Positions 5,327-43,701 of a stretch of 54,741 nt of DNA are shown one piece after another (within the stretch, counting starts at the first letter, position 1; every line of letters starts with the position of its first letter). The notes beneath the pieces were generated by a model, which was not told the origin of the DNA, did no database searches, and saw nothing but the letters and a program-made list of their open reading frames with translations. The DNA comes from an aff. Roholtiella sp. LEGE 12411 (GTDB lineage: Bacteria > Cyanobacteriota > Cyanobacteriia > Cyanobacteriales > Nostocaceae), in NCBI RefSeq assembly GCF_015206995.1, contig NZ_JADEXR010000029.1:1-54741 (forward strand), in the 5' to 3' direction. A program made the translations under genes and the position numbers.

Positions 5327-5424
5327 ACTTTTGCATCACTTACGTTTGTGAACTCTGAACTACATAATCGCTAATTTCAAGTAATTAATAAATTTATTAC
5401 CAATAGTCTAGGAAAAGCAAAAAC

Positions 5425-5775
5425 GTGAAAGGTTTCAAGAAGCTATCCTCAATCGTATTGCTACTATTAGCCTTTACCTATCCGCCTACTTTGGCTCAAG
5501 CCAAGGATAGTAGTCTGAATAATGTTCATAGTGAGCATCATGAGTCAGAAACAAATTTAGTTGAGGGTACAACTGGCGAGCTTTTACTAACTCAACGACG
5601 GACTAGACGACATTACTATAGACAGCGGAATCGACAACATTACTATGGAAGGCGGCGGAATCGACGACATTCTTATCGAAGAAGTCATCGTTCTGGACAA
5701 TACTATCGTCATGGACAATGGGAACTTATGCGCGATCGTCATGGAAGATTAATGTATGAGTGGCAGCGATTTTAA
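5425..5775 (+). CDS. Secreted Arg/Tyr/His-rich small protein, paralog 1
   Basis: A 116-residue protein with a clear signal peptide (KKLSSIVLLLLAFTYPPTLAQA, cleavage probably after AQA). A short acidic spacer (HSEHHESETNLVEG) and the motif LLLTQRR follow. The mature C-terminal half is dominated by Arg, Tyr and His (RRHYYRQRNRQHYY and similar). The start is a GTG at 5425, supported by alignment with the ATG of the paralog at 6565 (both read MKGF[K/R]KLSSIV) and by an AGGAAAAG stretch upstream. The family is unknown to me. A strongly cationic exported protein could bind polysaccharide, nucleic acid or membranes; that is inference. Confidence 0.75.
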   Translation: MKGFKKLSSIVLLLLAFTYPPTLAQAKDSSLNNVHSEHHESETNLVEGTTGELLLTQRRTRRHYYRQRNRQHYYGRRRNRRHSYRRSHRSGQYYRHGQWELMRDRHGRLMYEWQRF

Positions 5776-6115
5776 TGATTGATGCTTAACTCAATCTCAT
5801 TTCTCCGTGTCCTGTGTCTTGGAAAGTGACGCTCCTGCTGCGCTAACTGATGCCTACGGCGGTACTCCTTTTATACGGGATGCTCCGCAAACGGAGAACC
5901 CGCAGTGTAGCCGCCGCACCTTGCGGGATCTTGCTACAGAGTTTTGTGCGTGTCCTCTGTGGCAAGCTCCGTGAACGCGTCTACGTTCTTCGGTTCTTGT
6001 GCGTAAGTCCTGAGCGATTTCTAAAGTTAGTATCACTGTGCATTAAAAATATGCTTTATGGCAGTTGTCAATTGTCTGTAATATACCTTAGCTAGTTTGC
6101 TCATCATTTACCTTC
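5776..6115. other. Intergenic repeat-rich DNA
   Basis: Between the two paralogous secreted-protein genes. The sequence around 5805-6036 is GC-richer than its surroundings and full of short palindromes (for example CTCCGCAAACGGAG near 5884). It resembles dispersed cyanobacterial intergenic repeats. Two open frames cross it on opposite strands; neither encodes a recognisable protein. Confidence 0.5.
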
Positions 6116-6251: not shown

Positions 6252-6564
6252 TGTGTTAATTGATATAAGAATTTTTAATTGTTTTGCTGATAAAACTGCT
6301 GTGCTATTGATCAAAAAATACAAGCTGTAATATCGAGGCTAACCCTGTATTCATAGACTATGTTATCAAAATTATTTGTTTTAAAGATGCTCAAAAAATG
6401 CAGGTTTTTATACAAAGATATTGGACTATCAACTGATAATTACACAGAGGTTTTTATGATCCATAACACCTCAATTAATGTAAAAAAAAAGTGTCTGATC
6501 TGTAATTCTTTGATTTAAAGGTATTTAATGAACTTATTACTTAAGTTTGAGTAGAAGCAAAAAC

Positions 6565-6993: not shown

Positions 6994-7998
6994 CTAATGG
7001 CTTACTACTACCTCTCCTTCAAGGCGAGCCAGTCTTTCTGCAAGAAGTTTTTCTAGATCTTCCAGCGCCTTGGTAAACCCTTTAATACCCTCTGCTAGTT
7101 TGTCAGATGCCATGCGATCAGTAGTGTGCATCTTGTCAAAAGTAGCCTTGTCGATGGATATTTTTTGAATTTGCAAGTTTGTTACCTTGGCGGGGTCGAG
7201 TTTGCGTGGTAGTTCGCCAATGGTTGCTTGTAATTCAGCCAACAGCGATGGAGAAATGGTTAGCAAGTCACAACCTGCGAGTTCGGTAATTTCGCCAATG
7301 TTGCGGAAGCTAGCTCCCATAACTTCGGTTTGATAACCGAATTTCTTGTAATAGTTGTAGATTGTGGTGACAGACAATACCCCTGGATCTTCGGCTGCTG
7401 GGTAACTATCGCGTCCGGTATCTTTCTTGTACCAGTCGAGAATCCGCCCAACGAAGGGAGAAATCAGAGTAATGCCAGCTTCTGCACAGGCGATCGCTTG
7501 GTGGAGGCCAAACAATAAGGTAAGGTTGCAGTGAATACCTTCTTTTTCGAGAACTTCCGCAGCGCGAATGCCTTCCCAGGTGGAGGCAATTTTAATGAGT
7601 ACGCGATCGCGGGAAACTCCAGCTGCTTTATATTGAGCAATTAACTCCCTTGCCTTGGTAAGGGTAGCTTCTGTATCGTAGGACAAGCGAGCATCTACTT
7701 CTGTAGACACCCTACCGGGGATAATTTGCAAAATCTTCAGTCCAAAGGCAACAGCCAAACGGTCAAAAGCTAGAGAAACCACCTGTGCTTGGGTGGCTCC
7801 AGTTCCAGCATCTTTCTTTGCCTGGAGTAAAGTTTGATCGACAATTTCCTGATATTCTGGCATCTGTGCCGCAGCAGTAATCAGAGAAGGATTGGTAGTA
7901 GCATCTTGGGGTTTGAACTTTTCAATCGCTTGGATATCCCCCGTATCTGCGACCACAACAGTCATTTTCCGCAATTGTTCTAGTAAACTCTTAGGCAT
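6994..7998 (-). CDS. tal: Transaldolase
   Basis: Transfers the dihydroxyacetone unit between sedoheptulose 7-phosphate and glyceraldehyde 3-phosphate in the non-oxidative pentose phosphate pathway (cytoplasm). It is 334 residues, the usual size of TalB-type enzymes. DATTNPSL (about 32-39) and the Schiff-base lysine in VLIKIAST (Lys136) are present, as are the downstream LLFG and ISPFVGR segments. The ATG at 7998 follows a good AAGGAG Shine-Dalgarno. It is followed upstream on the same strand by pyruvate kinase and GAPDH genes, so the three probably serve sugar catabolism together. Confidence 0.97.
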
Positions 7999-8149
7999 AA
8001 ATACTCCTTGATTTTGATTTGTTTAGGACTTACTAATTTCCCTCTTGTTCACACTTTTTGCTGTTCCTTCAATTCTGATTCTGGCAATTTTTCTTAAACA
8101 TTGCCCAAGTTGGCTTGCTATCTTAAGCCTCGGTCTTATTCTAGGTGCG

Positions 8150-9580
8150 TTATGCCGAAATTGGCTGTCCAATGGAATGCACTTTGATTAAGCTAGTTGT
8201 TCCTGCTTTACCAATTGGGACACCAGAAGTAATCACTACCTTATCACCCTTGTTCGCTAAACCCATGTCTACAACGGTGTTCACCACATTCGTAAACATC
8301 TCTTCTGCATTGTGGACTGGTGGGATCAGCAAAGGTTCTACACCCCAGGAAAGCGCTAGTTGGCGGTAAGCAGTAACGTCAGGAGTTAGGGCAATGATAG
8401 GCGTACTCGGACGATATTTAGAAACCAGTCTCGCTGTACTTCCTGATGAAGTGTTACAAAGAATTGCTCGTGAGCCTGTTTCGTAGGCGATGCGACATAC
8501 TGCTTCTGCCACAGATTCGGTAACGCTGAGACTACCTGCTTCATGACACCAGGAATGTTTACCACCTTCATCTAAGGCCTGTTCTGTCCGCACAGCGATA
8601 TTATGCATTGTCTGGACGGCAGCGATGGGATATTGTCCCACAGCAGTCTCACCAGAGAGCATTACCGCATCTGTACCATCCAAAATGGAGTTGGCAACAT
8701 CTGTTGCTTCGGCGCGGGTAGGGTCTGGGGCGCTAATCATCGACTCCAGCATTTGCGTGGCTGTAATCACCGGTTTGCCAGCACGATTGCAACGACGAAT
8801 TATGTCTTTTTGAATCAGGGGTACTTCGTGAATTGGCATTTCTACCCCTAAATCGCCACGGGCAATCATAATGCCGTCGGCAACTTCTATGATCGCATCT
8901 AGCTGTTCTACCGCTTCTGCTCTTTCGATTTTGGCGATGACGCGAATGTTAGCACCCGCTGCTTCAATCATCCGCTGGGCAGGTTCTAAGTCTTGGGGCG
9001 ATCGCACAAAGGATACTGCCACCCAGTCTACGCCCAACTGAATCCCAAAACGCAAATCTAGTAAGTCTTTTTCGGTGATCGAACTGACGGGTAAACGAGT
9101 TTCTGGCAGGTTTACCCCTTTACGGGTGGAAATTAACCCACCAATTTTCACCTGTGCCCGAATTCTATCAGCATCGCGATCGGTAACAATCAACTTGACA
9201 CGACCATCATTAATCAAAATTTGTTCCCCCGGTCGCACCATTGCAAACAAAGTTGGCAACGGTAACGGTAGCTCATCAATACTCTCGCCTTTCTCTTGCA
9301 AAACAAAGGTAACTTCACTATCAGCTTCCACAGTTAGCCCATCAGGTGGCAAGGTTCCCAAGCGAATTTTGGGGCCACACAAGTCTTGCATGATGGCGAT
9401 CGGTTTTTGTTGCTCTTTGCTAATCTGTCTGAGGTGCTGAGCAGTTTGGGCGTGGAATTCATAAGCTCCGTGAGAAAAGTTCAGCCGTGCCATATTCATG
9501 CCAGCTTTTACTAATGCTTGTAGCTGCTCTGGTGCAGATGTAGCCGGCCCGACAGTACAAATAATTTTGGTTCGACGCAT
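8150..9580 (-). CDS. pyk: Pyruvate kinase
   Basis: Converts phosphoenolpyruvate + ADP to pyruvate + ATP, the last step of glycolysis. It has 476 residues with the classic motifs: RTKIICTVGPA at the N-terminus, ARLNFSHG near 33-40, AKIERAEAVEQ near 215 and the signature MIARGDLGVEMP near 237-248. The C-terminal domain ends normally without the extra PEP-utiliser domain found in longer cyanobacterial isoforms, so it is the short type. It lies about 150 bp upstream of tal and is followed (upstream side) by the GAPDH gene, all on the minus strand. Confidence 0.97.
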   Translation of the reverse strand: MRRTKIICTVGPATSAPEQLQALVKAGMNMARLNFSHGAYEFHAQTAQHLRQISKEQQKPIAIMQDLCGPKIRLGTLPPDGLTVEADSEVTFVLQEKGESIDELPLPLPTLFAMVRPGEQILINDGRVKLIVTDRDADRIRAQVKIGGLISTRKGVNLPETRLPVSSITEKDLLDLRFGIQLGVDWVAVSFVRSPQDLEPAQRMIEAAGANIRVIAKIERAEAVEQLDAIIEVADGIMIARGDLGVEMPIHEVPLIQKDIIRRCNRAGKPVITATQMLESMISAPDPTRAEATDVANSILDGTDAVMLSGETAVGQYPIAAVQTMHNIAVRTEQALDEGGKHSWCHEAGSLSVTESVAEAVCRIAYETGSRAILCNTSSGSTARLVSKYRPSTPIIALTPDVTAYRQLALSWGVEPLLIPPVHNAEEMFTNVVNTVVDMGLANKGDKVVITSGVPIGKAGTTSLIKVHSIGQPISA

Positions 9581-9934
9581 AGGGATTTAGGGATTTTAGG
9601 AATAACTTACGATGTGGATATCTCAAGCGATCGCCTAGGGCGCTTAGTTAATATGTGTTTCATATCACTGGTTTTCTAGGCGATATTGCGTATTTTTAAT
9701 CCTGTTTGCAGGGTGTGTACCATTTAACCCAAATCCCAAAAGTCTCTGGTCAGTCGTTAGTTCTGAGTATTTATCTTTTTGCTTCTAAACGCCAGTTAGT
9801 TGCCTCAAGTCGGACGCCCACGGCACTGCCTCCTTTAAGCCGGGGAACCCACTCAGGCAACTGGCTTTTGTAGAGACGCGTAGACGCTCAAAGAGCATCT
9901 GCTCGTAAGAGTACGCGTCCCTACTGCTGACTAA
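9581..9934. other. Intergenic region with two palindromic repeats
   Basis: The gap between gap and pyk holds an imperfect inverted repeat (9791-9805 against 9855-9865, GCCAGTT/GCCT arms) and a second hairpin GTAGAGACGCGTA / TACGCGTCCCTAC (9870-9882 and 9912-9924, one mismatch). The second sits just beyond the gap stop codon and could act as its 3' end structure. No gene is seen. Confidence 0.55.
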
Positions 9935-13863: not shown

Positions 13864-14037
13864 CAGATGGATGATATTCTTACCAGTCTGCGGTTCGTTA
13901 AAAAAATAACTTAAGAGTCCTAACCTTAGAGGTTGTTTGAAAATTCCTCGGCAAATAGAATTTGCTACTACACAACCAAAGTCCACCTCCGTATTTTCAT
14001 AAAACTTTATTTATCGTCATCATTACCACACCATGTC

Positions 14038-14727
14038 ATGACGCGTCGCCACACAATCCTAGGTCTTAGCGCTGTTGCACTGTCCTTAATACTCAAACGT
14101 TTATACAATCATGAAACTGAAGAAAAGCAAGCAGTAGAACCTGTAAAGCAACCTGAACAATCTCTGTCTACAAATGAACAGAGTTTAGCTTCAATCGATG
14201 CAACTGATATTCCTGCTACTAAAGCAGCGATTTGGTCTATTCTTCAGCAGGGAAAAGGCTACGTGGTGCTCATGCGTCATGCTTTAGCACCAGGAATTGG
14301 CGATCCACCTGATTTTCGACTAAATGATTGCTCTACACAAAGAAATCTATCGGATGAAGGTAAAAAACAGGCAATACGAACTGGAAAAGCATTTAAAAGT
14401 CGGAATATTCAAGTTTCTAGAGTTTTATCAAGCCAGTGGTGTCGCTGCTTAGAAACGGCAAAGCTAATGAATTTGGGTGCAGTTGAGCCTTTTTCAGCGC
14501 TGAATTCTTTTTTCCTCAATCACGCAACAGAATTTAAGCAAACTGCACAAGTGCGTCAATTTATTTTGAATAACCGTAACACTCCGGGTGTAATTGTGAT
14601 GATCACCCACGAGGTTAATATTAGAGCGATCGCCAGTGATATTTACCCCGAATCTGGAGAATCAGTAGTGTTACGAGCTAATCAAAAAAACAAAATAGAG
14701 GTGGTTGGACAAATTAAAGCTATTTGA
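14038..14727 (+). CDS. Histidine phosphatase superfamily protein, membrane-anchored
   Basis: A 229-residue protein. The start at 14038 (MTRRHTILGLSAVALSLILK) gives a signal anchor with paired arginines; frames upstream lack support. Residues 75-90 carry VLMRHALAPG, the phospho-acceptor RH motif of the phosphoglycerate-mutase-like/SixA clan. SSQWCRCLETA and MITHEVNIRAI supply the other conserved Arg and the second His. It probably removes phosphate from an unknown substrate outside the cytoplasm. The canonical RHG is RHA here. It converges on the phosphoketolase gene, with a hairpin between them. Confidence 0.85.
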   Translation: MTRRHTILGLSAVALSLILKRLYNHETEEKQAVEPVKQPEQSLSTNEQSLASIDATDIPATKAAIWSILQQGKGYVVLMRHALAPGIGDPPDFRLNDCSTQRNLSDEGKKQAIRTGKAFKSRNIQVSRVLSSQWCRCLETAKLMNLGAVEPFSALNSFFLNHATEFKQTAQVRQFILNNRNTPGVIVMITHEVNIRAIASDIYPESGESVVLRANQKNKIEVVGQIKAI

Positions 14728-21837: not shown

Positions 21838-22045
21838 GATTTTGAGTAGGGTGTTTATCTTTGGAGTAGCCATGACGTAGTAGATTTTCTTCTGAATCCC
21901 TTTGATTGTCATGGTTTACACTAAAGCTTGTGGTGTCTGTACGTACTATTATTGTCGGTAATTCGTAGGCTCTAACAAATAGTTTGCGATCGCTCACTTC
22001 TGCCAAGATCAACTTTGAATCACTCCATTTTAAGCTTTCCCTCAT
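21838..22045 (-). pseudogene. Transposase fragment (IS1634/IS4-type DDE)
   Basis: Minus-strand translation reads WSDSKLILAEVSDRKLFVRAYELP, then IIVRTDTTSFSVNHD and LLRHGYSKDKHP. The D-T-T-S-F-S block followed about 25 residues later by HGYSKD resembles the first catalytic Asp region of IS1634-like transposases. The frame continues only as antisense of frmA, so the element is truncated near 21840, right behind the frmA stop. The rest of the transposase is missing. Family name from memory of the motif. It marks a past insertion immediately upstream of the lasso-peptide genes. Confidence 0.6.
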
Positions 22046-22351
22046 CTGTTAATGGCTATCTAACAAGTTAATAACTGTTTAATAGCTGTCCATGCAAAAG
22101 GTTGTTTGAAAAGTATGATTGCGAACACCATCTTAAGCAATTGCAAGCAAATATGAATATCTGAATATCAAAGCGTAGTAATTTACAGCAAAATACTTAT
22201 ATTTCATTTTGTTTCCTTTACAGATACTTTATAAAATCAAGGATAATTTAAAACAATGAGTAAAGATACTACCTTGGTGTAGCAGTAATTTTTAGTAGGT
22301 GTTATAAATTAATCTAAGCATAAACAAAAGTGCATAGAAAATTTACTGAAG
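22046..22351. other. Upstream region of the lasso-peptide operon
   Basis: An AT-rich 306-bp leader that should carry the operon promoter. A TATAAAAT box-like stretch occurs near 22230, but I cannot assign a -35 with confidence. No gene is seen. Confidence 0.4.
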
Positions 22352-22654
22352 ATGCCTGTAAATATATCGACCGATTATTCCAGGATAGTAGCAGCTAAGG
22401 ATCAAATTTTCTCTGAACTACAAGGAGAAGCAGTTATTCTAGATATAAAATCCGGGGTTTACTACGGTTTAAATCAAGTAGGAGCCAGCATTTGGAATGT
22501 GATTCAAGCTCCAAAAACTGTAAATGAAATTCGGGATGCCTTGTTGGCAGAATATGAAGTTGATTCCCAAGCATGTGAAACTGACATTTTAATATTGCTT
22601 GAAGACTTAGCAAAAAATGGGCTGATCGAGATAACAAATGAAGCAGCTGCTTAA
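22352..22654 (+). CDS. Lasso peptide B1 protein (PqqD-like RiPP recognition element)
   Basis: A 100-residue PqqD-family protein. Such proteins form a winged-helix recognition element that binds the leader of the precursor peptide and presents it to the protease. Typical features are IFSELQGEAVILDIKSGVYYGLNQVGASIW (beta-strands plus start of helix 2), TVNEIRDALLAEYEVD and the final LEDLAKNGLIEI helix. It is the first gene of the cluster and overlaps the B2 gene by 17 bp, so the classical B protein is split into two tightly coupled genes here. The expected partner is the leader motif (Tyr..Pro.Leu...Gly) of the precursor at 25247. Confidence 0.93.
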   Translation: MPVNISTDYSRIVAAKDQIFSELQGEAVILDIKSGVYYGLNQVGASIWNVIQAPKTVNEIRDALLAEYEVDSQACETDILILLEDLAKNGLIEITNEAAA

Positions 22655-23075
22655 ATTGCTCCGCTTGACAAGCAAAGATGGCAACCTTTTGATAAATACC
22701 TTTATTTTGTTGGGATTAGTCAAACTAGGATTGTGGTTGCTGCCATTTCAGACCTTACGGCGAATCCTGCGTAACATTAGTCAGCCAAACCCAAAACTAA
22801 ACCAAACCTCCCTTAGCAGAATTATTTGGGCTGTTAATGTAAGTACTCGTTATATGCCCAGTGGCGCTAAGTGTCTTGCCCGTGCTTTGACTTGCCAGAT
22901 ACTGATGACTCAACGAGGTTACTCACCAGAACTCCGCATAGGAGTTGCCAAAAGTGAGGAAGGGAAATTAGAAGCCCATGCGTGGGTTGAAAGTCAAGGA
23001 AAAGTTGTAATTGGCTATCTTACAGATCTTCCACGCTTTACCCAACTGCCCTCTTTGCCAGGAAACAGACTATGA
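22638..23075 (+). CDS. Lasso peptide B2 leader protease (transglutaminase-like)
   Basis: A 145-residue cysteine protease that removes the leader from the lasso precursor. The N-terminal 50 residues include a hydrophobic stretch (LLINTFILLGLVKLGLWLLPF). The catalytic core shows Cys79 in GAKCLARAL, His114 in EAHAWVE and a likely Asp130 in GYLTDLPRF, the Cys-His-Asp arrangement of B2 proteins. It overlaps B1 upstream by 17 bp and the cyclase downstream by 4 bp (ATGA), so the three are translationally coupled. Length is normal for stand-alone B2 proteins. Confidence 0.94.
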   Translation: MKQLLKLLRLTSKDGNLLINTFILLGLVKLGLWLLPFQTLRRILRNISQPNPKLNQTSLSRIIWAVNVSTRYMPSGAKCLARALTCQILMTQRGYSPELRIGVAKSEEGKLEAHAWVESQGKVVIGYLTDLPRFTQLPSLPGNRL

Positions 23076-25039
23076 GTGGTATCATCGGCATCTACAACCT
23101 AGATGGGAAGTTTGTTAACCATCAGCATCTCAATGATATGGTCAATATTCTCGCCCATAGAGGGCCAGATGGGTCAGATGCATGGTGCGCTGGGTCTGTT
23201 GGCTTGGGCCACAGAATGTTATGGACTACTGCTGAATCTCTGTTAGATAAGTTACCTTTGGTTAATCAGACTGAGGATTTAGTTATTACAGCAGATCTTC
23301 GTATAGATAACCGGGATCAACTTATCTATGCGTTAAATTTTAATAATTATCCATCTGAAAAAATAACTGATAGCCAGCTAGTATTGGCTGCTTATGAAAA
23401 ATGGGGTGAGCAATGCCCAGAAAATTTACTAGGTGATTTTGCCTTTGCTATTTGGGATAGGCGAAAGCAAATAATATTTGGTGCCAGAGATCATTTTGGT
23501 ATTAAACCTTTCTACTACTACTCATCTGAAAAAACCTTTATTTTTGCCAGCGAAATCAAAGCTATTTTTTGTGTTCCAGATGTTCCTCGTCAGATCAATA
23601 AAGTGAGGATAGGTGACTATCTGGCATCAATGTTTCACGAGGCTGATATCACTTCTTACAAGAACATCTTCCGATTACCTCCTGCTCACAGGATGACAAT
23701 CAGTCCTGAAGGAATAAAACTACAATCATACTGGTCTATTGATCCTAATCGTGAATTGCGTTTAGGTTCGGATGAAGAGTACGCAGAAGCATTTCGCGAA
23801 ATTTTTAGCAAAGCAGTGCAGTGCCGCTTGCGTAGTGCCTTTCCTATTGGATCTCATTTGAGTGGTGGACTGGATTCCTCCTCCATTACCTGTATGGCAC
23901 GGAAACTGCTTGCTGAAAATGGAGGGCCGCGTCTGCATACCTTTTCGGCAGTCTTTGATGAATTGACCGAATGTGATGAACGCTCCTACATCAACGCAGT
24001 GATTGCACAGGGAGGGCTTGAGCCGCATTACGTCAAGGCAGATAAAACCAGTCCGTTGAAGAATATAGACCAAATGTTTTGGCATCAAGACGAAGCTTTT
24101 TACGCACCTAATTGGTCTATGAGTTGGGCGTTGTATGAAGCAATTAAAGAGCAAGGTGTTCGTGTAGTATTCGATGGTTTTGATGGCGATAACGTCGTAT
24201 CGGATGGTTATGGTTACTTAAGTGAATTAGCACGAGCCGGTCGCTGGCTAGCTTTGACTGGGGAAATTAGAGAGCTAACTAAAACTTTCGATGCGAATTT
24301 TGGGAAATGGTTATGGAGTTATGTGAAACAATATGGAATTAAGCCGATATTTTCCAAATTCCCACTCTTGAGCCTACTCCGTCGGAGCTGGCGATTAGTC
24401 ACTCAGTCCGCCACTCGCCAAGCTACCCAACCTCCTTGGAGTGCCATCATGAATGCTGAGTTTATACAACACATCGATCTTCAAAAGCGCTATGAGGCTT
24501 GGCAAAAAGTCCAAAGTAATTTTGGTCAAGACGAAAGAGAACGGCACTACCGCAATATAACTCAGGGTTTAGTGTCATTTGCTGCTGAGATGCAAGACAA
24601 GACTTGTGCTGCCTTTTCTATTGAGCAACGCTACCCTTTTTGGGACAAGCGCTTAGTAGAATTCTGTCTCTCCTTACCTGCTGAACAAAAGCTGCACATG
24701 GGCTGGAATCGGGTTGTGATGCGCCGTGCAATGGCAAATATCTTGCCAGTGGAAGTGCAATGGCGTCGAGGCAAAACAAATTTTTCTCCAAATCTTGTCC
24801 ATGGTTTATTGTCTTTTGAGCGAGAGCGTTTGGACAAGTTAATTCTCCATGATTTAGGAGTCGTTGCAGAATATGCAGATGTTACTGAACTCAAGCAGAT
24901 ATATCAAAGATTTGTCTCTTTACAGTCTCCAACAACAGCAAAGGATGTCCATACAATTTGGATAGCTATTTCTTTAGCTCTATGGTTGCAGTACGCTGCA
25001 CAGGACAGACCTGATGAGCTTGCCAGAAAAGGAGTTTAA
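23072..25039 (+). CDS. Lasso peptide macrolactam synthetase (asparagine-synthetase-like cyclase)
   Basis: An ATP-dependent enzyme that adenylates the side-chain carboxylate of the core peptide and lets the new N-terminus close the ring around the tail. 655 residues: an N-terminal Ntn-type domain (GIIGIYNLDG, LAHRGPDGSDAW, FGARDHFGIKPFYYY) and a C-terminal synthetase domain with the PP-loop SGGLDSSS near 264-271 and DGFDGDNVVSDGYGY near 368. Asparagine synthetase B needs Cys as the second residue for glutamine hydrolysis; here it is Ser (MSGIIG), consistent with a cyclase that uses the peptide amine instead of glutamine ammonia. Plain asparagine synthetase is unlikely given the B1/B2 neighbours. 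Confidence 0.93.
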   Translation: MSGIIGIYNLDGKFVNHQHLNDMVNILAHRGPDGSDAWCAGSVGLGHRMLWTTAESLLDKLPLVNQTEDLVITADLRIDNRDQLIYALNFNNYPSEKITDSQLVLAAYEKWGEQCPENLLGDFAFAIWDRRKQIIFGARDHFGIKPFYYYSSEKTFIFASEIKAIFCVPDVPRQINKVRIGDYLASMFHEADITSYKNIFRLPPAHRMTISPEGIKLQSYWSIDPNRELRLGSDEEYAEAFREIFSKAVQCRLRSAFPIGSHLSGGLDSSSITCMARKLLAENGGPRLHTFSAVFDELTECDERSYINAVIAQGGLEPHYVKADKTSPLKNIDQMFWHQDEAFYAPNWSMSWALYEAIKEQGVRVVFDGFDGDNVVSDGYGYLSELARAGRWLALTGEIRELTKTFDANFGKWLWSYVKQYGIKPIFSKFPLLSLLRRSWRLVTQSATRQATQPPWSAIMNAEFIQHIDLQKRYEAWQKVQSNFGQDERERHYRNITQGLVSFAAEMQDKTCAAFSIEQRYPFWDKRLVEFCLSLPAEQKLHMGWNRVVMRRAMANILPVEVQWRRGKTNFSPNLVHGLLSFERERLDKLILHDLGVVAEYADVTELKQIYQRFVSLQSPTTAKDVHTIWIAISLALWLQYAAQDRPDELARKGV

Positions 25040-25091
25040 GTCGATGTTTTTATTTCCTAGAAAACTTTCCATAATGTGTCAGTTCATTGTC

Positions 25092-25125
25092 CTGTTGGCT
25101 GTTGCTTATAAGTAACACCCAACAG
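25092..25125. promoter_or_regulatory. Long hairpin between cyclase and precursor genes
   Basis: CTGTTGG (25092-25098) pairs with CCAACAG (25119-25125), and inside it GTTGCTTA (25101-25108) pairs with TAAGTAAC (25109-25116) with one mismatch. A smaller TCACCC/GGGTGA stem follows near 25143-25162. There is no T-run. It may be an RNA-processing or attenuation point that lets precursor mRNA accumulate independently of the enzymes. Confidence 0.5.
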
Positions 25126-25246
25126 CACAGTGAGTTTGATTTTCACCCAACTGAATGGGGTGATTTCACACTTAGCTGCTCTTGGTTCTGAATAGAGCCA
25201 ACATTGAAAGTAAACAAAACATCAATGAGCAATGAAGGAGAAAATT

Positions 25247-25393
25247 ATGACTGCTAACAAAAAGCCTTATACTCAGCCCAAACTGACTGTTTATGGTGAA
25301 GTTGAAGTCTTGACACAAGGTCTAGGTTTGGGCTTGTTTACAGATAAGGAATTTCCCATATCAACTCCCAAAGACGATGTGACTTTCTCTTAA
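25247..25393 (+). CDS. Lasso peptide precursor (A gene)
   Basis: A 48-residue peptide with the start ATG 25247 placed 6 nt behind a perfect AAGGAG (25235-25240). The leader (residues 1-24, MTANKKPYTQPKLTVYG then EVEVLTQ) has the YxxPxLxxxG recognition motif and Thr23 at position -2 of the cleavage site, both hallmarks of lasso leaders. The core starts at Gly25. Counting from Gly1, residues 7, 8 and 9 are Phe, Thr and Asp, so only Asp9 (Asp33) can close a standard ring: GLGLGLFTD, a nine-residue macrolactam. The 15-residue tail starts KEFPISTPK and ends at Ser48. Hand-calculated monoisotopic mass of the cyclised core is about 2565.30 Da. The terminal Ser fits the kinase gene downstream. Confidence 0.9.
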   Translation: MTANKKPYTQPKLTVYGEVEVLTQGLGLGLFTDKEFPISTPKDDVTFS

Positions 25394-25520
25394 TGGGAGT
25401 TTTAAATGACAAATAGGTAGATTAGGATACCCAAGTTTTTAAAGCCTATATATTCCTAATTCTCTACCAATAAATCTGATACATAGGCTTCACAAGCTCA
25501 GATAGTCTAGATTATTCATT

Positions 25521-25553
25521 TACCTCTGTTTAGGTTACAACTAAGCAGAGGTA
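25521..25553. terminator. Hairpin between precursor and kinase genes
   Basis: TACCTCTGTTTAG (25521-25533), loop GTTACAA, CTAAGCAGAGGTA (25541-25553): a 13-bp stem with one G-T pair, followed by only three T residues. A partial terminator that would make the kinase less abundant than the precursor is plausible. Confidence 0.55.
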
Positions 25554-25628
25554 TTTACTCGAATCTAAATAAAGAATTAGTCTGTGTGGGCAAGTAACTT
25601 AAATAGCTGCTGATATGGAGTTTATGAG

Positions 25629-26558
25629 ATGTATAGTTACACTGCTTACAATTTAGGCATTTGCTCTGCTTTGCCTTTACCGGAGTTACAAGAAAGTTCT
25701 ATACAGATAGAAGCAGATGTAGTTATCCGTTTTGGAGAAGTAGATTGGTCTTTACCCACGCCACTCCCATCATGGAGTTACTTTCAAATTGATGGTGAAT
25801 ATACTTATTTATACTGGAAAGTGGTAGGTAAATTCCTAATACATTCTGGAAAGGAAATTATTATCGATCCGCTCCCAAATGTAGAAGAGAGCATTATTCG
25901 CCTGCCTTTGTTAGGAGCAGTTTTAGGAATGCTGCTTCACCAACGGCAGTTTTTAGTGCTACATGGTAGCGCTGTTGCCGTTGATGGTAATGCTGCCGTC
26001 TTTTTAGGGCGATCTGGGCAAGGGAAGTCTACTATGGCAGCAACCCTCTATGGACGGGGGCATAAACTGATGGCAGATGATGTAGCTGCTGTAAATGTTG
26101 ACAATGCGATCGCTCCCTTATTAGTTCCAGGGTTTCCACGAATCAAGCTTTGGCCGGACGCAGCCACAGCTGCACTGGGAGATGATCCAGAAACCTTGAG
26201 GAAGATTCACCCTGAAGTTGAAAAACGCGATCGCCCCACTGTCGATAACTTTTTACGAACACCCTTAATCCTTAAGCGGATTTATGTACTTTCTGTAGGT
26301 TCAACTCTTCAGATTAGACTTCTCAAACCCACAGAAGCCGTAACCCAAATAATAGCCAATTCTTATATTCCCATGTTAATTGGCAAAAAATTTATCCAAA
26401 GTTCTAAAGCATCTGTACACTTACATCAATGTACCAGTTTAGTTAACAATCTACCTATCTATAGTCTGGAACGACCCCGTTCTCTAGAATTGTTAGCTGA
26501 TGTAGCAGGTTTGGTAGAAGAAGATTTAGCAGGTGAGAGCCACCCAGCCAGGGTATAG
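25629..26558 (+). CDS. HPr-kinase-like lasso peptide kinase
   Basis: A 309-residue protein with the HPr Ser kinase/phosphatase fold. The N-terminal 100 residues are beta-rich (YTAYNLGICSALPLPEL, YTYLYWKVVGKFLIHS). The catalytic part shows HGSAVAVDG (112-120), the P-loop GRSGQGKST (127-135) and ADDVAAV (149-155). Known relatives in lasso clusters (the paeninodin kinase and ThcoK) phosphorylate the C-terminal Ser of the precursor. The precursor here ends in Ser, so the same reaction is the best guess. It starts 235 bp after the precursor gene, behind a hairpin. The cognate HPr/PTS system is not expected in this organism. The first HIP1 sites after about 4 kb appear in its second half. Confidence 0.88.
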   Translation: MYSYTAYNLGICSALPLPELQESSIQIEADVVIRFGEVDWSLPTPLPSWSYFQIDGEYTYLYWKVVGKFLIHSGKEIIIDPLPNVEESIIRLPLLGAVLGMLLHQRQFLVLHGSAVAVDGNAAVFLGRSGQGKSTMAATLYGRGHKLMADDVAAVNVDNAIAPLLVPGFPRIKLWPDAATAALGDDPETLRKIHPEVEKRDRPTVDNFLRTPLILKRIYVLSVGSTLQIRLLKPTEAVTQIIANSYIPMLIGKKFIQSSKASVHLHQCTSLVNNLPIYSLERPRSLELLADVAGLVEEDLAGESHPARV

Positions 26559-26591
26559 ATTATTTAAGCTTAATCTAAATTTAAGATTTTA

Positions 26592-26638
26592 TTAGAGTAA
26601 TCCAAGGAAAAAATGATCCAAAACTTGGATTACTCTAA
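26592..26638. repeat. Perfect 15-bp hairpin, solo inverted terminal repeat or terminator
   Basis: TTAGAGTAATCCAAG (26592-26606) and CTTGGATTACTCTAA (26624-26638) are perfectly complementary with a 17-base loop containing AAAAAATGATCCAAAA. It lies between convergent genes and could terminate both. The left arm plus loop recurs at 43444-43477 beside a transposase-like fragment, so it may instead be an insertion-sequence end. Confidence 0.7.
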
Positions 26639-26673
26639 CGAAAAAATTGAGGTAATTCTAGATAAATCCAAAA

Positions 26674-28737
26674 TTATTTGTTGCCGTTGCCGTTGCCATT
26701 ACCGTTATTGTTATTTTTAAGGACACGTTCGGCCAGTTTTTCCGGTACTTCCTGGAGATGAGCGTATTCCCAATGGAAAGAACCAACACCAAGAGTAAGC
26801 GATCGCAATTCTACAATAAAGTTTTGCATCTCTGCTTGCGGCAAATATGCAGATACATTATCCCAGCCTTGCCAATCGTTTTTGCCCTCATAACCCAAAA
26901 TTTGCCCGCGTCTACCACTCAGCAGTTGCAACACCTTGGAGGTAAATTCGCTAGGTGTTGTCACCTGCACCCGTAGAATCGGTTCTAGAAGGGTGGGTTG
27001 GGCTTGGGGCATCCCCGTTTGCATAGCCAGGCGGGCGGCTTGCTTAAAAGCTTGTTCGGAACTATCGACGCTGTGGTAGGAACCATTGGTCAGAGTTACC
27101 GCTACATCTACTATTGGGAAACCCAAGGGCCCGTGTGCCAGAAACTCCCGCACGCCCATTTCTACCCCAGGAATATACTGTCTAGGAACCACACCGCCAA
27201 CGATGGTTTCATTGAAGTTAAAACCTGTACCACGAGGTAAGGGCTTAATGTCGAGAAAAACATCACCAAACTGTCCATGACCACCGCTTTGGTGCTTGTA
27301 GCGCCCATGAACTGAAGCCACAGTTTTGCGGATGGTTTCTTTGTAAGGCACTTGCGGCAAGTGGGTTGTCATCGGTAAGTTATATTTGCGGCGCAGTCTA
27401 TCTAGGGCGACTTGTAAATGAATTTCGCCTTGTCCCCAAAGGATTACTTCGTGGGTATCGCCATGTTGCTCCCAAGCTAGTGAGCAGTCTTCTTCCAAGA
27501 GCTTGGTGATGGCACTGCTCAGTTTAACTTCATTGTTGCGCTTTTCCGGTGTAATGGCGAGTGCATACACTGGTTCCAATTTTTCAGCTTTGGGTAATTC
27601 TATAGTCAACGGCTGATCTGTAGAGATTGTATCCCCCGTCTTGATTCCCTCTAAACGACTCAATGCGACAATTTCACCAGCACTAACTTCATTAACTGAC
27701 TGCTGTTGTTGTCCCATGAGGCGATAAATTCCACCAGTACGAATACCGTTAAGGACGATACCATCAGTTAATTTACCTTGCCAAACACGCACTAGGGATA
27801 GTTTGCCACCTTGGGGAGTATAGTAAGTTTTTAGTACCTGGGCTAAAGGAGAAGTTGTTTTGTTTTTGAAGTTTTTTAAGCGACGTTCTGCTGTAGTTTC
27901 TGGTTCGGGAGCTTCTCTTAACAAAGCTTCTATTAAAGGTCTAACACCATAGTCTTGTTCTGCTACACCAAAGAAAACGGGCACTACCAAATCGGCCCCT
28001 AATTCTAGTTTCAAGTCTTGGAGAATTTCTTCTTGGGGTGGCTCAATGTCTTCTAAAAGTTCTTCCAATAAGTGATCATCAAAATTTGCCAGGGCCTCAA
28101 GCATTTCTGCCCGTGCTATATGTTCCTCTTCTTTTAAACTTTCGGGAAAGGGGATAGGATCAGCAGGTGCGCCTGGATGATATTTGTATGCCTGTTCGCT
28201 CACCATATCAATAAAGCCGATGAGCTGCTCCTCCCCATTCATAATGGGATATTGGTGCGCTACTAAAGGACGGCTGGATACTGCTTTGAGGGCGTGCAAT
28301 GTTTCCAATACGTGAATATTTGCCCGATCCATTTTATTAACAAAGACGATGTGGGGAATTTCCCAATCGTCTAAGAATTTAAATAAAGGGGCTAAGGTAA
28401 GGACTCGTTGGCGTATGGGTTCACAAACTACAATGGCTGCATCGACTCCCATTAAAGCATTGGATGTTTCTTGGGCAAACTCCACGCTTCCCGGACAGTC
28501 AATAAAGGTGAAGTGAATGCCGTTATACTCGGTGCTAGCAGCACTTACTTCTACACTCATCTGGCGATCGCGTGACTCAGCGGCACTGTCTCCTACTGTG
28601 TTACCATCCTTAACATTGCCTTTGCGCGAAATTGCCCCTGTAACAAATAACAAGCTTTCTAGTAAAGTGGTTTTTCCACTTAAATAAGGCCCAACAATTG
28701 CAACGTTCCGCGAACCCGATTTTACTTTTTCATTCAT
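26674..28737 (-). CDS. EF-G-like translational GTPase (atypical)
   Basis: A 687-residue protein with the domain order of elongation factor G: G domain (P-loop GPYLSGKTT, 16-24; NKMDRANIH near 133), domain II, then domains III-V (VPYKETIRKTVASVHGRYKHQSGGHGQFGDV; GFPIVDVAVTLTNGSYHSVDSSEQAF). The switch II motif is DCPGS (80-84) instead of DTPGH, so the His that activates water in classical EF-G is absent. The family is the EF-G-like group seen beside true EF-G in many bacteria; its function is not settled. The ATG at 28737 follows GGGAGG; an upstream TTG start is weaker. The C-terminal tail is Asn/Gly repeats (NNGNGNGNGN). Confidence 0.88.
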   Translation of the reverse strand: MNEKVKSGSRNVAIVGPYLSGKTTLLESLLFVTGAISRKGNVKDGNTVGDSAAESRDRQMSVEVSAASTEYNGIHFTFIDCPGSVEFAQETSNALMGVDAAIVVCEPIRQRVLTLAPLFKFLDDWEIPHIVFVNKMDRANIHVLETLHALKAVSSRPLVAHQYPIMNGEEQLIGFIDMVSEQAYKYHPGAPADPIPFPESLKEEEHIARAEMLEALANFDDHLLEELLEDIEPPQEEILQDLKLELGADLVVPVFFGVAEQDYGVRPLIEALLREAPEPETTAERRLKNFKNKTTSPLAQVLKTYYTPQGGKLSLVRVWQGKLTDGIVLNGIRTGGIYRLMGQQQQSVNEVSAGEIVALSRLEGIKTGDTISTDQPLTIELPKAEKLEPVYALAITPEKRNNEVKLSSAITKLLEEDCSLAWEQHGDTHEVILWGQGEIHLQVALDRLRRKYNLPMTTHLPQVPYKETIRKTVASVHGRYKHQSGGHGQFGDVFLDIKPLPRGTGFNFNETIVGGVVPRQYIPGVEMGVREFLAHGPLGFPIVDVAVTLTNGSYHSVDSSEQAFKQAARLAMQTGMPQAQPTLLEPILRVQVTTPSEFTSKVLQLLSGRRGQILGYEGKNDWQGWDNVSAYLPQAEMQNFIVELRSLTLGVGSFHWEYAHLQEVPEKLAERVLKNNNNGNGNGNGNK

Positions 28738-31973: not shown

Positions 31974-32897
31974 CTAATTTCCAGCTGCTAGCTGCACTTG
32001 CTCTACCGTTAAATCTAAAGCCACTGCTACTTGTTCCACACTCAATCCTAGTGCCAATAACCGAGGTACAGATTCTAACTTAGCTTGTAACTTACCTTCT
32101 TCTAAGCCTTCCTGTCTACCTTCCTGTCTACCTTCCTGTCTACCTTCCTGTCTACCTTCCTGTCTACCTTCCTGTCTACCTTCCTGTCTACCTTCCTGTC
32201 TACCTTCCTGTCTACCTTCCTGTCTACCTTCTTCTAAGCCGTCTTCTTTAATTGATTGATACATCCTGCTTTTTTTGAATTCATCGTCTATCCCTAACAT
32301 TTGTGCCAACTCCTCTCGGCTTAACCGGGTAAATTTGTATAAAAGGATGGTTTCTATTAATTCTACAATTTGCTTCCTGGTTGTTTCATCTGCCAGTTGT
32401 TGTCTTGCCTGCAAAATCAATTCTCTACCTTTGTCTACGGCTGTTTCTTCCCTTTCGATAATTAATTTAACAATTGCCACTTGCAGTGAATTCTCTGCTG
32501 TTCCTAATTCATCTAGATAAATGCGTTGCACTTGTAAACTGTTAAGCAGCAGTTGATACGGTAGTTGATCTTCTGGATCTAAACTTCGTTGCGGATAGAT
32601 AACGACAGCACGCCAAAAATTGACGGATTCGTTTTGACGCAGGTAAAGAAAAATTTCAGCAAACAAGCGTCTATAAAAAGTAGAGTCTAGTTGAAACTGG
32701 ACTTCGACAAAGTACAACGGTTGGTTTGTAGTTTCATCTGTTGGGATGAATACCCCATCAATCCGAAAAGCAGTGTCTTTTAGTTCAACGGAAACAAATT
32801 CATAGGCACTGGTATTGACAGTTGTGTCACCAATGATTTCAAAAAATATGCTAGGGAAAGCTTGAAATATGCTATAAAATATTTTGTCAGTTTGCAC
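31974..32897 (-). CDS. DUF2887 / Rpn-type PD-(D/E)XK nuclease-like protein with EGRQ repeats
   Basis: A 307-residue protein. The N-terminal 130 residues ([60 protein letters not shown]) match the DUF2887 family related to Rpn recombination-promoting nucleases: the Asp in FRIDG and E-V-Q in FVEVQ form the nuclease-like core. A helical region follows, then ten Glu-Gly-Arg-Gln repeats, then a C-terminal helix ([25 protein letters not shown]). The start is GTG with no obvious Shine-Dalgarno. The family is common and mobile-associated in cyanobacteria. In vivo role unknown. Confidence 0.85.
32108..32227. repeat. Ten exact 12-bp coding repeats (CTTCCTGTCTAC)
   Basis: Ten consecutive identical 12-bp units encode (EGRQ)10 on the minus strand. 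The period is a multiple of three, so copy-number change alters protein length without frameshift. Confidence 0.97.
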
Positions 32898-40582: not shown

Positions 40583-40603
40583 TTCCCAGCCTCCGGCTGG
40601 GAA
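40583..40603. terminator. REP-like hairpin between nnrD and mtnP
   Basis: TTCCCAGCC, loop TCC, GGCTGGGAA: a perfect 9-bp stem between convergent genes. It resembles the common cyanobacterial repeat TTCCCAG..CTGGGAA. Confidence 0.7.
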
Positions 40604-40627
40604 CGAGAGGAATCACCCATTTATGAG

Positions 40628-41500
40628 CTACAAATACTTTTGTAACAATAACCCTAACTTCGCCTTTGTCGCGGCTGGTGCTTTTTCTAAATTAGTCAAA
40701 ATTGCATACTTCAACGCTGAATGTGCATCACTCAACGGGGGATTTTCACTCAAGCGGCGCACGGTTTCTTGAATCACCTTTTGAGCATTGACTGCATTCC
40801 GCTGCAAATTAGCAATCACTAACTCCACTGTGACGCTATCGTGTTCTGGATGCCAACAATCATAGTCTGTCACCAGCGCTAAGGTTGAGTATGCAATTTC
40901 GGCTTCCCTCGCCAACTTCGCCTCTGGTAAATTCGTCATCCCAATTACTGTTGCACCCCAACTGCGGTAAAGACTTGATTCCGCCTTAGTGGAAAAAGCT
41001 GGCCCTTCCATGCATACATAAGTACCACCGCGATGCAGAGTTACTTCTGGCAAATTTAGAGATGCGATCGCATCTGCCAACACAAGAGCCAAGTTTTTAC
41101 AAATCGGATCGCCAAAAGCAATGTGAGCAACAATTCCCTCACCGAAAAATGTCGAAATCCGGTTTTTCGTCCTGTCAATAAACTGATCTGGTACTACCAT
41201 ATCCAGTGGTTTAGCTTCTTCCTTCAAGGAACCGACAGCACTAGCTGAAATTAAATACTCTACACCCAGTTGCTTCATTGCATAGATATTTGCACGAAAT
41301 GGTAACTCAGAAGGTAATAACGTGTGATTGCGACCATGGCGTGCTAAAAAAGCTACTCGTGTACCCTCTAGTGTCCCCAAAATTAAAGCATCCGATGGTG
41401 AACCAAAAGGAGTCTCGACTTGCACTTCTTCTACATCTTTGAGTGCATCCATCTTGTATAAACCACTGCCGCCAATAATTCCAATCCGAGCTTGGGTCAT
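40628..41500 (-). CDS. mtnP: S-methyl-5'-thioadenosine phosphorylase
   Basis: Phosphorolyses methylthioadenosine from polyamine and methionine metabolism to adenine and methylthioribose 1-phosphate. 290 residues; typical motifs are [10 protein letters not shown] (6-15), [24 protein letters not shown] (about 51-74), the segment [18 protein letters not shown] (about 158-175) and [13 protein letters not shown] near 187-200. The start at 41500 is the natural ATG. Convergent with nnrD. Confidence 0.95.
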
Positions 41501-41607
41501 GATTTTAAACTGTTCCTTGCTAAGCCGCCAAGTTATTTTACCGAAAAGCAGAACGGCTGCAAATTAGCTGAGTATTTGATGCTTTACGGTATTGGATTAA
41601 AGATTGA

Positions 41608-43425
41608 TCACCGATACTGTTGGGCTTGGGTTTCAAACAAGTAAGCATAAGTACCGCCCATCTGTATCAGTTCTTCATGGGTTCCATTCTCAACAATTGT
41701 CCCACCTGCCATAACATAAATGCGATCGGCCATTTTGACGGTGGATAAGCGATGACTAATCAGGATCGCAGCTTGATTTTTAATCAGTTGGCGAAACTGT
41801 TCAAATACTTCGTATTCAGCTTTGGGATCCATTGCACTGGTAGGTTCATCCAAGACAATCACCTGAGAGTTGCGGAGAAATGCTCGCGCCAAAGCTACCT
41901 TTTGCCATTGCCCAATACTCAGTTCTTCTCCTTGATCAAATAATTTCCCTAAGACGGTATCATAACCTTGGGGTAATTTGGCAATTACATCATCAGCACC
42001 AGAACGACGTGCCGCAGCAATAATGCTTTCTCGCTTTGCTGGTAAATCAATGTTGCCCAACCAAATATTTTCCTGAGCCGTAAAGTGGTACTTAGCATAG
42101 TCTTGGAAAATCACGCTGATTTCACGGCGCAATTCTGCCATTTTATATTGGCTGAGGTCAATGCCATCAATAGTAATGCTGCCAGTAGTTGGGTCGTACA
42201 AGCGGCATAAAAGTTTAATTAAAGTAGTTTTTCCAGAACCGTTTTCTCCTACAAGCGCCACTACTTCACCTGGTCGAATTGTCAGGTTAATATCTTGAAG
42301 TGCCTGACGGTTAGTGGTAGCGTATTGGAAACTCACTTGGTTAAAAACGATGCCAGTTTGCATCGGTTGGGGAATAGGGTGGGGATTTAAAGGTTCTACT
42401 AACTTGGGTTCCAGGTCAAGAAATTCGTAGAGGTTAGCGAGAAATAGATTATCTTCATATAGATTAGACAAACTAACTAATAGACTTTTAATATCATTTT
42501 GTCCTCGTTGCAATGCTTGGTGATAAAGTACCAAATCACCCAAACGTAAAATACCTTGAATAGCTTGATAGACGATAAAAGCATAGACACCAAAGATGAA
42601 AATACCCGCTATAGCTTCTGCAACAAAATTAGCTATGGAGCGTTTGGTGAAAATAGCTATCTTTTCCTTATATATCTGCCGTCGGATACGAAGATACCAT
42701 TGACTGAAATACTCACCTAAATCAAACAAGCGAATTTCTTTAGCGTACTGGTCTGATGTCAGCATCCAAGCTAGGTACATTGCTTGCCGTTCTGGTTGTG
42801 TACGTTTACGCTGCCAACGATACATGACCCGGCTATATTTTAACCGTACTAACAGCGCCGGAAGAGCTGCCACAAATAAAATGCCGATAATTCCCCAATG
42901 CAGTGACAGCAGTAAACCCACCATAGCTACTAAGGAAATACTACTTTGACCAACTTGTGCTAAACGATTGAGGATTTCGGGAGGTCGGTAAGGAGCTTCT
43001 CGTTGTGCTCGTTGCAGGGCATCGAAGTATTGGGCGTTCTCGTAGTATTCTAGGTCAGTAGCAATTGATTTAGCATTAATAATCCCCTGCATGTAGTCAG
43101 TCACTTGCTGAGAATGGGCAGTAACCACTAATTCTGTTAAGGAACTACAAACACTGCTAACAAGAGTGACTGCACCAGCCAAGATAACCCAGAGGATGAC
43201 ATTACCAAAGGCGACTGTTTTATCAGCAACGTTGAGATTAGCAACTACTGCATCTATGATTAATTTGGTGAGATAGATTGATATTACGGGCAGTATGCCT
43301 TGGATGACTAATAGTACTATGCGAGCGATCGTCCAGCCGGGGCTACTTTGCCATACTAGGCGTAATGCAGGCACAAGGTGTAAAGTTTGCTGAATTTTTT
43401 GTTTGATCTTTTTGCCTGCTCGCAT
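41608..43425 (-). CDS. ABC transporter, fused permease-ATPase half-exporter
   Basis: A 605-residue half-transporter: six membrane spans in the first 330 residues (for example IARIVLLVIQGILPVISIYL and GIIGILFVAALPALLVRL), then an ATPase domain with Walker A GENGSGKTT near 392-400, signature LSIGQWQ and Walker B VIVLDEPTSAMD. The signature's second Gly is Ile-Gly (LSIGQ), seen in some exporters. It would work as a homodimer. Substrate unknown; lipid, peptide or drug export is typical. Although not next to the lasso genes, it is the only ABC exporter in the window. Confidence 0.92.
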   Translation of the reverse strand: MRAGKKIKQKIQQTLHLVPALRLVWQSSPGWTIARIVLLVIQGILPVISIYLTKLIIDAVVANLNVADKTVAFGNVILWVILAGAVTLVSSVCSSLTELVVTAHSQQVTDYMQGIINAKSIATDLEYYENAQYFDALQRAQREAPYRPPEILNRLAQVGQSSISLVAMVGLLLSLHWGIIGILFVAALPALLVRLKYSRVMYRWQRKRTQPERQAMYLAWMLTSDQYAKEIRLFDLGEYFSQWYLRIRRQIYKEKIAIFTKRSIANFVAEAIAGIFIFGVYAFIVYQAIQGILRLGDLVLYHQALQRGQNDIKSLLVSLSNLYEDNLFLANLYEFLDLEPKLVEPLNPHPIPQPMQTGIVFNQVSFQYATTNRQALQDINLTIRPGEVVALVGENGSGKTTLIKLLCRLYDPTTGSITIDGIDLSQYKMAELRREISVIFQDYAKYHFTAQENIWLGNIDLPAKRESIIAAARRSGADDVIAKLPQGYDTVLGKLFDQGEELSIGQWQKVALARAFLRNSQVIVLDEPTSAMDPKAEYEVFEQFRQLIKNQAAILISHRLSTVKMADRIYVMAGGTIVENGTHEELIQMGGTYAYLFETQAQQYR

Positions 43426-43476
43426 ATTTAAAATTTATTCAGTAAGAGTATTCCAACTAAAAAATGATCCAAAAAT

Positions 43477-43701
43477 TCAGTCACTTCGACAAAAGATTTC
43501 AACGAACCATTTTTTCCAAGTTGGTAAGCGGTAAATCTGCTCTTTAATTTGATCCATTGCTTTTTGTGTAAGTTGAACTCCTGTATGATCAATTTTCTCA
43601 ACCAAAGGAACCACAGGATTTTTGCCCTTGAAAGCCACTCTTTGAAGCAAAGCGTAGCAAGGTATCAACACTGTCGAGGAAGTTTTGGCAGAATAAACCA
43701 C
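43477..43701 (-). pseudogene. Probable transposase C-terminal fragment
   Basis: A 74-codon frame whose second half, NPVVPLVEKIDHTGVQLTQ then RLPTWKKWFVEIF, resembles the C-terminal tail of a cyanobacterial transposase family in my memory (TGVKLT...RLPxLxKWFV). The frame has no credible start. Directly beyond its stop the sequence AAGAGTATTCCAACTAAAAA (43444 on) matches the arm of the 26592-26638 hairpin, as expected if it is the insertion-sequence end. The specific family is uncertain. Confidence 0.45.

Follow-up and report, generated by a model that had tools for sequence, protein, structure and literature searches.

A 54,741-nucleotide stretch of the cyanobacterium aff. Roholtiella sp. LEGE 12411 (Nostocaceae; assembly GCF_015206995.1, contig NZ_JADEXR010000029.1, positions 1 to 54,741), here called the window, carries a predicted lasso-peptide locus that includes a kinase gene. 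Five consecutive genes on the forward strand, in the order B1-B2-C-A-K, make up its core; A encodes the precursor of this putative ribosomally synthesized and post-translationally modified peptide (RiPP). A reading made from the letters alone (the sequence-only reading) had called these five genes, and their positions and strand were recovered here, as was the perfect AAGGAG it noted ahead of the precursor. The features are:

22352..22654, + strand: B1, PqqD-like RiPP recognition element (NF033536, 83.3 bits, cut-off 80; PF05402, E 6e-20)
22638..23075, + strand: B2, transglutaminase-like leader peptidase (NF033537, 118.6 bits, cut-off 33)
23072..25039, + strand: C, asparagine-synthetase-like lasso macrolactam cyclase (NF033535, 954.3 bits, cut-off 525)
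25235..25240, + strand: AAGGAG ribosome-binding site of the precursor gene, six bases ahead of its ATG
25247..25393, + strand: A, precursor gene of 48 residues (leader, core and stop)
25247..25318, + strand: leader MTANKKPYTQPKLTVYGEVEVLTQ, with Thr at position -2 (NF033528, 30.7 bits, cut-off 33)
25319..25393, + strand: core GLGLGLFTDKEFPISTPKDDVTFS and stop, with a predicted Gly1-Asp9 ring and a tail to Ser24
25629..26558, + strand: K, HPr-kinase/PEPCK-like tailoring kinase (H112, K133, D150 and D151 in 48/48 homologues)

By curated NCBIfam models, all of them scored above cut-off, B1, B2 and C are classed as lasso enzymes, and the three genes adjoin one another as in split-B lasso loci. B1 also resembles the solved TbiB1 structure 5v1u (E 2.4e-12). 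Cys79, His114 and Asp130 of B2, which the sequence-only reading had picked out, are present, the first two identical in 24/24 aligned B2 proteins and the third an Asp in 19/24. An SGGLDS loop at cyclase residues 264-269 is kept in 28 of 29 aligned rows. Inspection of the open frames revealed no stops or frameshifts in B1, B2, C, A or K, or in D, an exporter gene discussed below.

The precursor has the YxxP leader, the Thr at -2 and the Asp or Glu at core positions 7-9 that mark split-B lasso precursors. Its leader motif, Y..P.L...G....LT, appears in the window with YTQP, and the leader-core junction reads YTQP...LTQ/GLGLGLFTD. The ATG at 25247 was preferred over one at 25232 because of the position of the ribosome-binding site. 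Against four congeneric genomes, the core codons show 8, 6, 7 and 7 synonymous changes and no nonsynonymous change in any pair, and the leader codons show 6, 9, 7 and 6 synonymous with 0, 0, 1 and 2 nonsynonymous changes; the core of a more distant copy, in genome G214, differs by 7 synonymous and 4 nonsynonymous changes. Since the core shows silent changes without amino-acid changes within the genus, the precursor is a real gene with its core under purifying selection. Thirteen window-type precursors could be aligned (12 cyanobacterial and one from Desulfocapsa), and Gly1, Asp9, Phe12, Pro13, Thr16, Phe23 and Ser24 of the core are invariant among them. Asp occupies core position 9 in 57 of 66 distinct precursors from kinase loci. 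The calculated masses are 2565.300 Da for the cyclised core, in agreement with the value near 2565.30 Da proposed earlier, and 2645.267 Da with HPO3 added.

The His, Lys and two Asp residues listed for K were counted across 48 non-identical kinase homologues; a conserved His-Lys-Asp-Asp set, essential by mutation, has been reported from paeninodin-type lasso kinases (PMC9266682). An AlphaFold model of K (pLDDT 92.9, 34 sequences in the alignment) found PEPCK as its best Foldseek match in the PDB (E 7.4e-8), with HprK/P from rank 34 (E 1.6e-6), at probability 1.00 yet with modest TM-scores (0.30-0.59 by query). The kinase is thus modelled as a PEPCK/HPr-kinase fold.

The gene content suggests a route to a product. 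If the genes are expressed, B1 would bind the YxxP leader and deliver the precursor to B2, which would cleave after ...LTQ; C would adenylate Asp33 (core Asp9) and join Asp9 to the amino group of core Gly1, leaving a nine-residue ring threaded by the tail; K would phosphorylate core Ser24 to give the 2645.267 Da form; and the ATP-binding cassette (ABC) protein D, displaced by a rearrangement apparently associated with an ISAzo13-type element, would export it. We consider it highly probable that the locus is a complete lasso-peptide locus and that its product is a 24-residue, 9-ring lasso peptide phosphorylated at Ser24. The sequence-only reading holds in its central point, a lasso locus that has both a genuine precursor gene and an HPr-kinase-like tailoring enzyme.

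Several observations weigh against this interpretation. The precursor misses the cyanobacterial lasso model NF033528 and comes just under the cut-off of the leader model NF033521 (18.3 bits against 19), and the paeninodin model NF033524 was not among its matches at E up to 10. The kinase scores 32.3 bits on PF07475, just under the cut-off of 33.3, and falls far short on the HprK subfamily model TIGR04352 (42 bits against 200). Five of the 13 aligned precursors extend past Ser24 (by P, GTF, GTF, DTY and ETPMRG). A nearby kinase would not by itself imply C-terminal phosphorylation, because 26 of 45 kinase loci have no Ser-ending precursor. The product is predicted from genes alone, with no peptide, mass or transcript seen.

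The terminal Ser of the window core is nevertheless the best candidate for the phosphate acceptor. Eight of the 13 aligned precursors end at Ser24, and published lasso kinases are reported to act on a terminal Ser (PMC9266682), including those closest to K in gene context. Within the kinase sub-clade nearest to K, set by a 44% identity cut picked after seeing the data, at least one Ser-ending precursor occurs at 12 of 13 loci, compared with 7 of the 32 remaining loci, in counts uncorrected for relatedness. One alternative is that the same lasso peptide is made and K modifies another core Ser or Thr (Thr16, Ser15 or Thr22), adds several phosphates, or adds a phosphate that serves as a handle for a later step. 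The 45 loci were drawn from 48 kinases, the three kinases for which no precursor was found being dropped; all precursors end in Ser at 18 loci, some at 1 (a mixed locus, counted as Ser) and none at 26, where the kinases have H-K-D-D intact. Among the 66 distinct precursors, 19 end in Ser and 47 otherwise; 46 of these 47 carry a Ser beyond core position 9, and in 35 that region includes a [GS]S-x-[DNSG] motif, itself picked after the fact. The terminal-Ser label needs 10 changes on the kinase tree, and Thr16 is as invariant as Ser24 (13/13). LppK, an HprK-like RiPP kinase of Bacillota (LPPs), is reported to place phosphates on a different Ser, S3 (PMC13381572), and polyphosphorylation is reported for ThcoK and SyanK (PMC9266682). 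Given the sub-clade pattern and the terminal-Ser targets of the published kinases, we judge this alternative unlikely for the window and keep Ser24 as the predicted site.

The sequence-only reading had stated that no dedicated ABC transporter is adjacent. That is literally true of the window, but a probable cognate exporter lies elsewhere in it, and both edges of the displacement can be located:

41608..43425, - strand: D, lasso ABC exporter, displaced (89-97% identity to the ABC gene that follows K in six relatives)
26594..26650, no strand assigned: breakpoint downstream of K, an insertion sequence (IS)-end-like element (homology with relatives ends at 26594; element common to 43426-43477)
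43440..43620, - strand: breakpoint upstream of D, an ISAzo13-like transposase relic (relic matches to ISAzo13 transposases)

In 6/6 relatives compared (G088-G091, G214 and G043) the ABC gene begins 67-138 bases past K, and DNA alignment of five of them (without G043) gives one contiguous block, B1-B2-C-A-K-D-MTA phosphorylase. The same block is split in the window into 22129-26594 (+) and 40592-43452 (-), with D about 15 kb from K on the opposite strand. Because K and D are adjacent in the relatives and the block is split here, the comparison indicates that a dedicated exporter exists, ancestrally beside K, and was moved by a rearrangement with IS relics, mis-assembly being the other possibility. 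The element common to both cut ends gave a local alignment score of 68, against a best of 51 in 300 shuffles, and has two further partial copies elsewhere in the genome. The relic on the D side, 40 residues long, has no Pfam match; among plasmid records it matches six, and in three the matched stretch is annotated as ISAzo13 transposase. A plain inversion with two breaks between K and D was considered and is not shown. Stretches of 40-60 kb from the five relatives (30 kb for G214) have no further match to the window beyond the shared block, and in the six relatives ilvN, found on the far side of D in the window, adjoins neither D nor the EF-G-like gene over the 3.5 kb inspected.

This displacement raises the alternative that this strain's locus is inactive or in decay. 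With its start just some 20 bases inside the breakpoint, D would need a new promoter; it now lies far from K on the other strand, and IS relics are present at both broken ends. All six genes, B1, B2, C, A, K and D, are free of stops and frameshifts, however, and the precursor core is the same as in relatives, so we regard decay as improbable. It is less probable still that the cyclase yields a branched-cyclic, unthreaded peptide: threading is unreadable from sequence and the potential plug residues of the tail (Phe, Pro, Lys) are not diagnostic, but B1, B2 and C all fall in lasso models. The idea that C is an ordinary asparagine synthetase beside a small open reading frame (ORF) arising by chance, which C's passing of the asparagine synthase model TIGR01536 (317.6 bits, cut-off 267.1) might suggest, can be set aside almost entirely, given the much higher score on the lasso-cyclase model, the adjoining B1, B2 and precursor conserved in relatives, and a Ser at residue 2, the place we take to be that of the glutaminase Cys in asparagine synthetases (Ser in 24 of 29 aligned rows, Cys in 1, Lys in 1, gap in 3). 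The sequence-only reading had named just this outcome, a true asparagine synthetase with no precursor in relatives, as what would count against it; the lasso-cyclase score and the precursors conserved in relatives show otherwise. The preferred reading remains an intact lasso locus whose product is phosphorylated at Ser24.

One further feature lies between the precursor and the kinase:

25521..25553, + strand: 13-bp perfect stem-loop, identical in 5/5 aligned genomes

In these five genomes the flanks of the stem-loop vary while it stays unchanged; it is a predicted structure without covariation, and it may perhaps be a terminator or mRNA stabiliser that sets the precursor level above that of the enzymes. 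Two more conserved predicted hairpins lie upstream of the precursor, in the C-A intergenic region (25092-25125 and 25183-25202). Covarying pairs were sought in the intergenic hairpins and none were found, and an Rfam scan of 22000-26700 gave no family at gathering level and a single chance-level match. Elsewhere in the window, an ORF at 31974-32897 (-) has an (EGRQ)-like repeat run near its C-terminus.

The distribution of these genes changes how two earlier claims should be seen. The sequence-only reading had treated a kinase-tailored lasso peptide as noteworthy in a cyanobacterium, and had described the position of the precursor after the cyclase as a departure from the common order. A cyclase scan of named genomes gave 26 loci, 23 with a kinase homologue (one cut by a contig end and one weak, E 6.7e-12); at two of the three loci without one the contig stops inside or less than 1 kb from the cyclase, and the third is a distant locus without B1/B2 matches. 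We then counted across 217 genomes of the window's own GTDB family (cyclase at E 1e-150, kinase at E 1e-20): 83 have the cyclase and 95 the kinase, and all 83 cyclase genomes are among the 95, the other 12 having a kinase match without such a cyclase. Downstream of 103 of the 105 family cyclase matches a kinase lies within 6 kb on the same strand (median 864 bases); of the two exceptions, one has its kinase at 6161 bases and the other has none downstream on its contig. These matches indicate that a kinase is the rule beside lasso cyclases of this family, not a rarity. The gene order is likewise no oddity, being B1-B2-C-A-K-D in the six closest relatives compared, and C A K is an order known from paeninodin clusters (PMC5067487).

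The window's own genome (G000) has a second kinase-bearing lasso locus on contig C85 (L085; C85:1-12000), in the order B2-C-A-K-ABC, with the cyclase at 3687, precursor at 5828, kinase at 6320 and ABC gene at 7241; its precursor reads MKKSWNTPDLTVYGAVENLTQ, followed by a different core ending in GS. On contig C333 of this genome lie another lasso-type B2, its third, and an ABC gene with 62% identity to D (at 7843-9642 and 13908-14270). No NF033535 cyclase match was found on that contig, and these genes perhaps belong to another RiPP locus.

A search of the family for the precursor yielded 17 matches in 9 of the 217 genomes. Sixteen, from 8 genomes, are of the window type, and the seventeenth, in G035, is of another type. 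Eleven of the sixteen lie inside a lasso locus, and five are far from any lasso cyclase. Three of these orphans are in G214: two are chromosomal and more than 1.9 Mb from the sole cyclase, and one is on another replicon, plasmid NZ_CP151101.1 (358 kb) of Nostoc sp. UHCC 0302; this plasmid is typed as conjugative, and its annotation contains no lasso gene within 6 kb of the precursor. The two in G043 are on contigs other than that of its sole cyclase. No lasso enzyme was found within the 1.5 kb searched on either side of the other four orphans, and neither genome has a second NF033535 cyclase at E 1e-100. The orphans retain the leader, Asp9 and the tail, with a purine-rich stretch ahead of the ATG, and several have a stem downstream. 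For the commoner cyanobacterial type, 107 of 107 precursors found by profile (E 1e-8) have a cyclase no more than 4 kb away, and the window's own genome has no extra window-type precursor outside the locus. In a phylum-wide draw of 386 genomes, the precursor profile matched 19 at E 0.001, but over its full length just the window's genome and G043; the match that came after these, in G354 (E 7.8e-9), covered residues 4-36. A made-up tail query matched only the Nostoc plasmid. A similar tail, DADFPVGTPFDDLRFSP, stands with a kinase at a Desulfocapsa locus (L026).

The enzymes of the locus may mature such distant precursors. We propose, tentatively and as somewhat less probable than its negation, that one chromosomal lasso synthetase and kinase matures scattered, partly plasmid-borne precursors in trans, each setting a variable ring (core 2-8) between a constant leader and a constant phosphate-accepting tail (Asp9, FPxxT, TFS), and that the tail, shared with paeninodins of Bacillota and with the Desulfocapsa locus, belongs to a phospho-lasso module, old or transferred, that extends outside Bacillota. 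If so, ring variants could be gained on mobile DNA without enzymes of their own. No paper on orphan, distal or in-trans precursor genes of lasso peptides was found in the literature searched.

Judged by its enzymes, the locus is a complete and ordinary lasso system, and the phosphorylated, paeninodin-like variety was not found described from cyanobacteria in the portion of the literature covered. Reviews including PMC9266682 place the characterised phosphorylated lasso peptides in Bacillota and add biochemical work on one proteobacterial kinase. Nor was a cyanobacterial lasso kinase found described in the portion of the literature covered; since a RODEO survey included cyanobacteria, these genes may well figure in earlier lists. 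The single locus is moderately interesting, and the family pattern of a near-universal kinase, missing acceptor Ser and scattered precursors is more worth following. With many kinases beside precursors that lack a terminal Ser, the cyanobacterial family offers a natural test of the targets and purpose of these kinases. The unchanged core in five genomes of one genus, together with precursors elsewhere or on a conjugative plasmid, suggests a selected biological role that can be tested in culturable strains.

Among known systems, the prochlorosins have dispersed precursors served by one lanthipeptide synthetase. The present family is similar in that two relatives carry same-leader precursors far from the only cyclase found; it differs in being a lasso system with few precursors, none of them scattered in the window's genome, and with a presumed in-trans activity. 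Proteobacterial loci of the SyanK type, from Sphingobium yanoikuyae, have the order A B1 B2 C K D (PMC5067487). By their published description they share the lasso genes and an HprK-like kinase with the window, and they place the precursor first, whereas in the window it lies between C and K.

The locus is like other cyanobacterial lasso systems (NF033528, NF033535) in its NF033535 cyclase and leader type, and in having, as most relatives fetched do, a kinase and an ABC gene downstream. It is unlike them in its core Gly1, short conserved tail (DKxFPxxTP...) and terminal Ser; the commoner type has longer tails, often A, I, V or Q at position 1, and an internal GS-x-[DN] motif. The account of Cyanocohniella sp. 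LLY describes a precursor, C, B2 and B1, with no lasso kinase mentioned in the parts of it covered (PMC9332814).

The kinase as query matched 14 plasmid records, four of which were inspected. On the haloarchaeal plasmid pHALXA01 of Halopiger xanaduensis (L129), a kinase homologue with 32.9% identity stands next to genes for lasso B1 and B2, an asparagine-synthase-like protein and an ABC protein; the record lists this homologue as two small hypothetical ORFs on the opposite strand. Plasmid pB2.3 of Priestia aryabhattai (L126) has a cluster in the order C-A-K-B1-B2-ABC annotated 'paeninodin family lasso peptide', whose kinase (4974-5909) is labelled 'aldolase' in the public record and is homologous to K at 30.6% identity. 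The Priestia precursor, with a WKKP leader and 57.7 bits on NF033524, ends in DAAFPTHTPKGDLTFES, which resembles the window tail DKEFPISTPKDDVTFS; 13 of 24 core residues are identical, and 0 of 20000 shuffles scored as high, in a comparison with a single sequence whose core start is assumed.

The closest comparison is with the paeninodin family (NF033524; PadeA/PadeK of Paenibacillus, ThcoK, pseudomycoidin), reported to be restricted to Bacillota and to have a nearly invariant WxxP leader (PMC13381572, 2026). Split B1 and B2, the C-A-K neighbourhood, an HprK-like kinase with His-Lys-Asp-Asp and a C-terminal core Ser (TFS in the window) are held in common. The order is B1-B2-C-A-K-(D) in the window and C-A-K-B1-B2-D in paeninodin clusters, the kinases are about 31% identical, and the window locus, which is cyanobacterial, has a YxxP leader (YTQP) and no nucleotidyltransferase gene. 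The window system thus works, as far as its genes predict, like a paeninodin, yet it falls outside that family by both the NF033524 model and the WxxP leader.

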